A stretch of DNA of 64,000 bases, taken from contig JAAFJC010000002.1 of the NCBI GenBank assembly GCA_013297925.1, positions 43,403 to 107,402 of the forward strand. The letters run 5' to 3'. This stretch comes from Comamonadaceae bacterium. GTDB lineage: Bacteria; Pseudomonadota; Gammaproteobacteria; Burkholderiales; Burkholderiaceae_C. The first letter of the stretch is position 1. Each line of letters begins with the position of its first letter. The position numbers and the translations under genes are program-made. Below the pieces are notes generated by a model. The model saw only the letters and a program-made list of their open reading frames with translations, was not told the origin of the DNA and did no database searches. Below are positions 52,977 to 53,144 of this stretch, piece after piece.

Positions 52977-53144
52977 GGCATCAGCGCTTCAAGAGTTGTC
53001 AAGATTGCTGATTCGTCTGCAATCCTGGCGCTCCGGGGCATCCCCGGGGTTATTGGATAGGTGTGCATTTCGGTGCATGAGCCCGACCTGCGCTTTCAGC
53101 GCAGATCAGCTAATGCGAGACCGGTTGGTTGAAGCGCTGATGCC
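52977..53144 (+). ncRNA. retron msr-msd non-coding RNA
   Basis: Perfect 16-nt inverted repeat GGCATCAGCGCTTCAA (52977-52992) / TTGAAGCGCTGATGCC (53129-53144) flanking several stem-loops, immediately upstream of the RT gene. Confidence 0.85.

Follow-up and report, generated by a model that had tools for sequence, protein, structure and literature searches.

A reverse transcriptase (RT) gene preceded by a structured RNA raises the question of whether the two form a retron and, if so, of which kind and with what role in the cell. Such a pair is found in the genome of a Variovorax-like member of the Comamonadaceae, in the stretch of 64,000 nucleotides analysed here (hereafter, the window). An earlier note on this DNA proposed that it contains an msr-msd RNA framed by the repeats a1 and a2, the template from which a retron RT makes its branched product. 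The evidence considered below indicates that the locus is very probably a retron of the myxobacterial-type clade (PADLOC "RT_other/outgroup").

The exact complementarity of a1 and a2, the G directly following a1 and the three internal hairpins were all found with the letters and at the coordinates claimed (Table 1). The a1/a2 pair is the sole perfect 16-nt inverted repeat with a spacing of 60-300 nt in the 64-kb window; at the same spacing, inverted repeats as short as 12 nt occur at a mean of only 1.15 per shuffled window. The predicted folding energy of the 168-nt RNA is -83.8 kcal/mol vs. -59.9 +/- 4.0 kcal/mol for its shuffles (z = -6.0), none of the 200 shuffles folding as low, and the a1/a2 stem is closed in the fold. 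Only the msd hairpin had to be redrawn: its inner part stands as proposed, but the outer stem, tentatively put by the earlier note at GGTGTGCAT (53061-53069), was relocated on the basis of the comparison with relatives to the arms given in Table 1. The predicted msd DNA copy folds into a single hairpin (z -3.3). The host genome contains a single copy of the msr-msd RNA. The hexamer shortly 5' of a1 possibly represents a -10 element, which would place the RNA start approximately at a1; the promoter scan found no sigma-70 pair for it.

Table 1. Features of the retron locus (window coordinates)
Feature	Position	Strand	Remarks
Whole retron unit	52945-54514	+	Absent from same-genus genome G114; left edge approximate
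Putative -10 element	52965-52970	+	TAGAAT; shortly 5' of a1
msr-msd RNA	52977-53144	+	Upstream of the RT gene
a1, 5' arm of closing stem	52977-52992	+	GGCATCAGCGCTTCAA; 3' end CAA, as in 43/49 relatives
Predicted priming (branching) guanosine	52993	+	Context AAGA, mostly AAGC in relatives; site per PMC6868368
msr stem-loop 1	53003-53024	+	GATTGC/GCAATC, arms 53003-53008/53019-53024; length and sequence variable among relatives
msr stem-loop 2	53031-53049	+	CTCCGGGGcatCCCCGGGG; 8 bp, 3-nt loop; best-conserved RNA element (99.7% paired, n = 45)
msd template, approximate	53052-53128	+	Ends inferred; predicted DNA product ~70-77 nt
msd hairpin	53075-53116	+	Outer and inner stems as below
msd outer-stem arms	53075-53082/53109-53116	+	GCATGAGC/GCTAATGC; from comparison with relatives
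Inner msd hairpin	53088-53104	+	CTGCGCTttcAGCGCAG; arms 53088-53094/53098-53104
a2, 3' arm of closing stem	53129-53144	+	TTGAAGCGCTGATGCC; 5' end TTG, as in most relatives
Retron RT gene	53161-54492	+	443 aa; N-terminal helical domain (~residues 1-82), RT core, region X HALMH, YADD, region Y from ITG

The open reading frame starting 17 nt past a2 encodes, judging from its motifs (YADD, HAxxH, ITG) and its modelled structure, a retron-specific RT. The protein carries RVT_1, and its reading frame is open over the full length with the catalytic residues complete. Among the PADLOC models, RT_other (447.6 bits, residues 8-443) and RT_outgroup (426 bits) score best, followed by RT_XIII (330.5 bits). 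The closest PDB sequences are the retron RTs Ec86, Ec67, and Ec78, and the best 18 PDB structural matches of the AlphaFold model (pLDDT 90.7) are all retron RTs, ranking above the enzymes of group II introns, DRTs, and DGRs. The YADD motif is kept in 42 of 42 aligned relatives; HAxxH takes the place of NAxxH in every variant of the clade listed, and most relatives, like this RT with its ITG, begin region Y with ITG or VTG. Three features by which retrons are recognized are present: an RT that carries YADD together with regions X and Y, an a1/a2 RNA beside it, and a G at the inner end of a1. Two details count against placing the locus in a retron clade, namely H instead of N in region X and ITG rather than VTG in region Y. 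The former weighs less because Mx65, too, departs from NAxxH at its asparagine (PMC6868368) and HAxxH is common to the clade.

The same scores bear on the possibility that a different RT system (a group II intron, DGR, or DRT) happens to have a structured RNA upstream. The RT does match models of group II introns and DRTs weakly, but the retron models score far above them, and retron RTs come first in the fold comparison. The RNA displays a retron-like layout with a closing stem, a priming G, an 8-bp/3-nt stem, and an msd hairpin. Neither an intron nor a template/variable repeat nor any other DRT part was noted. This explanation is regarded as extremely improbable. Scarcely more credible is a decayed retron whose RNA and RT are nonfunctional remnants. 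The single genomic copy would agree with decay, as would the mismatch in the outer msd stem, which lies at a position different from that in most relatives, but the full-length RT with all its catalytic residues, the confident RT fold, and the RNA helices, all intact, speak for a preserved element.

The same RNA type sits 5' of related RTs in many phyla. In the scan of RT upstream regions, a stem followed by a G was required and repeats at <= -24 kcal/mol were counted as strong; these were present 5' of the RT at 38 of 81 loci vs. 2/81 further upstream, 0/78 downstream, and 0/243 in shuffles. The scan required long arms, so loci with short a1/a2 stems were passed over and were recovered later with a model of the RNA interior. 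Across a set of 49 loci, the a1 junction reads CAA followed by GC (28 loci), GA (9), or GT (6), the rest being near variants; the A-G step was built into the search rule, so only the remaining junction context is informative. Likewise, the conservation of the priming G in relatives is not independent, since the G was required at selection, but the interior fold was unselected. This interior, common to the 49 loci, comprises a variable stem-loop 1, the 8-bp/3-nt stem-loop 2, and the msd hairpin; the GGG-NNN-CCC core of stem-loop 2 occurs in 48 of them vs. 12% of shuffles.

An alignment of 45 sequences, from loci picked for a1/a2 pairing, confirms that the helices are maintained. Its 39 pairs are 87.5% paired vs. 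65.8% in shuffles, and pairing drops to 41-44% when the partner is slid by 1-3 columns. The covariation score amounts to 0.569 vs. 0.176, changes on both sides are found in 30 of the 39 pairs, and none of 500 shuffles of the alignment reached any of these measures. For the four helices, the pairing is 91.7, 99.7, 87.4, and 64.1%, the lower value of the fourth probably stemming from variable loop length and alignment slippage there. In the closing stem, the covariation expected of homologous loci is evident, with changes on both sides in 14 of 16 a1/a2 pairs, and in an independent check the pairing itself persists at loci not chosen for it.

Since the 45 loci had been preselected for a1/a2 pairing, a covariance model was built on just the interior sequences of 27 loci, leaving out a1 and a2. 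It scores 86.9 bits (E 4e-18) on the window, a value that is high by construction since the window is one of the 27 training rows. Of the other loci, 82 of 92 are matched at E < 1e-4; none of these 82 belongs to the training set, although some are in the a1/a2-selected set. Flank pairing was then computed at 56 such loci not in the a1/a2-selected alignment: the mean best energy is -15.8 kcal/mol, compared with -7.0 kcal/mol when flanks are swapped between loci, and -15 kcal/mol is reached at 28 of the 56 loci vs. 12% of swaps. Thus, the complementary ends and the interior co-occur without selection. Overall, the fold, the covariation, and the retron RT downstream bear out the msr-msd assignment at the level of sequence and predicted structure. 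No retron RNA family of Rfam matches the locus or four relatives, and the search of Rfam yielded no RNA model of the clade. The interior covariance model provides a means of finding the RNAs of these retrons. Two matched loci are peculiar. In a Solirubrobacterales bin (L099, 3785-3916), the model matches the strand opposite the RT, unlike at the other loci, which could reflect chance or a palindrome. At L127 (G407:C1:2685801-2687084), the RNA still fits the model and the clade RT contains one in-frame TGA; this RT is possibly a decaying copy.

The surroundings of the element show how it sits in the chromosome. In G114, the homologue of the upstream membrane gene (window 52480-52944) ends where the homology to the ahcY leader (89%) begins, L125:3280 corresponding to window position 54515. 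The membrane gene there runs directly into the ahcY leader; hence, the 1.57-kb unit, which holds just the RNA and the RT, was either inserted here or cleanly lost from G114. There is no recognizable integrase, terminal repeat, or target duplication. Its right edge adjoins the ahcY leader, where an SAH riboswitch (RF01057, 54525-54621, 52.6 bits) precedes ahcY (54698-56149). Because the retron lies directly upstream of this riboswitch, its transcription could run into the ahcY leader. Farther along the window, a TatD-like DNase gene (61059-61898) gives a weak match to the PADLOC QatD model (41.7 bits) and is most likely a housekeeping TatD.

Retrons typically come with an associated effector gene or a recognized fused effector domain, a feature that is neither universal nor decisive; neither was found here. 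PADLOC detected no retron partner among eight flanking genes. Clustering of the ORFs in the flanks of the clade loci (at most ~4 kb to either side, a reach that a more distant partner would escape) revealed no family recurring beside the RT across genera: the largest cross-genus neighbour cluster spans 11 loci, in just 2 of which the gene lies within 600 nt of its RT, and the neighbour clusters of Burkholderia reflect close kinship. This finding agrees with the report of some retrons without a clear proximal effector (PMC8867640).

One candidate partner was the membrane gene itself, the same-strand neighbour immediately before the retron, which codes for a small hydrophobic protein and might act as a small membrane toxin in the manner of the two-helix membrane effector of Ec48. 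However, its homologue occurs without a retron in the same-genus genome G114, close homologues are confined to a few Comamonadaceae genomes and metagenomes, none was found near another RT of the clade, and no PADLOC model matches it. The gene was therefore rejected as an effector and is treated as an ordinary neighbour, a retron with this partner being very unlikely.

With no separate partner gene, the output of the retron would most likely be carried by the RT protein itself. The RTs of the clade share an N-terminal extension, a helical domain of ~80 residues with 19-39% identity and an invariant Trp, for which the comparison with PDB folds gave no significant match. Extended N-termini have been described for myxobacterial retron RTs as well, their function not being known (PMC6868368). 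In several members (L067/L014, L020, L029/L030, L044/L027/L026), homology to the RT of the window begins only past ~residue 65-110 and the RNA lies ~200-400 nt before the start of this homology, which suggests that their N-terminal domain is divergent or replaced. That the N-terminal helical domain is the part carrying the output can be put forward only tentatively.

The structure and covariation of the RNA, the identity of the RT and its co-occurrence with the RNA, the insertion, and the lack of a recurrent partner are results of the analysis; the working of the element can be outlined by analogy with known retrons, from which both the priming and the product length are derived. A transcript would run from near a1 through the msr-msd region into the RT gene. 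Closure of the a1/a2 stem would present G52993, and the RT would grip stem-loop 2, probably via its C-terminal region Y, and prime from the 2'-OH of this guanosine. The msd would then be copied from just before a2 back to about stem-loop 2, with the template removed by RNase H. The predicted product is a 2'-5' branched msDNA, i.e., a branched RNA-DNA molecule whose DNA part of ~70-77 nt forms one hairpin.

For retrons in general, defence is the default role, and by analogy with them a role in phage defence is somewhat favoured for this element. A bolder possibility, regarded as rather doubtful, is that of a widespread single-gene retron clade in which the N-terminal helical domain acts as effector or sensor, the entire system then consisting of a single protein plus its msDNA, or in which the function is other than phage defence. 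The element is small (1.57 kb) and intact, the corresponding site in a sister genome is cleanly empty, and the clade extends over at least six phyla with no recognized partner gene and no Rfam RNA model. This makes the locus a good test case for what partnerless retrons of the myxobacterial type do.

Close relatives of the RT occur in Comamonadaceae (Variovorax, Polaromonas, Ramlibacter, and Acidovorax) and other Burkholderiales; distant ones were found in Myxococcota, Planctomycetota, Acidobacteriota, Verrucomicrobiota, Alphaproteobacteria, and one Actinomycetota bin. Some RT match was present in 107 of the 401 genomes of the family sample, all kinds of RT counted, and ~30 places were assigned to this clade by score. 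Among viral contigs there was just one distant RT, and the msr had no exact match. Full-length relatives with 41-42% identity and the same RNA interior are present in Myxococcus, Pyxidicoccus, and Archangium, and RT_other (a catch-all model name) and RT_outgroup are the top models for ten distant relatives, the myxobacterial ones included, as they are for the RT of the window with its N-terminal extension inside the match. The grouping with myxobacteria rests on Myxococcus and Pyxidicoccus relatives standing in for the Mx162 and Mx65 sequences. The locus is very probably a single-gene retron of a known, little-studied kind, also found in myxobacteria, without a recognizable partner (toxin) gene.

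Type XIII fits less well: RT_XIII comes third with a clearly lower score, the N-terminal domain falls outside its match, and the neighbouring genes tested include no PADLOC retron partner. In the papers searched, the only mention of type XIII or of comparable betaproteobacterial retrons was a Variovorax given a type XIII call by PADLOC (PMC11953036). The closest solved structures, Ec86 (type II-A) and Ec67, belong to systems with an effector, as a protein of its own or as a fused Toprim domain, whereas none was recognized here. At the same time, stem-loop 2 has the same shape as the msr stem bound by the RTs of Ec86 and Ec73, in the case of Ec86 through region Y (PMC6868368). Among myxobacterial retrons, Mx162, Mx65, Sa163, and Ne144 (Retron-Mxa1, -Mxa2, -Sau1, and -Nex2) also possess an extended RT N-terminus, and their closing stem ends at the priming G, as it does here (PMC6868368). 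The differences lie in the priming context (AAGA vs. CAGC or GAGC), in the betaproteobacterial host, and in the history of the unit, which is missing from a sister genome here, whereas the myxobacterial retrons are inherited vertically.
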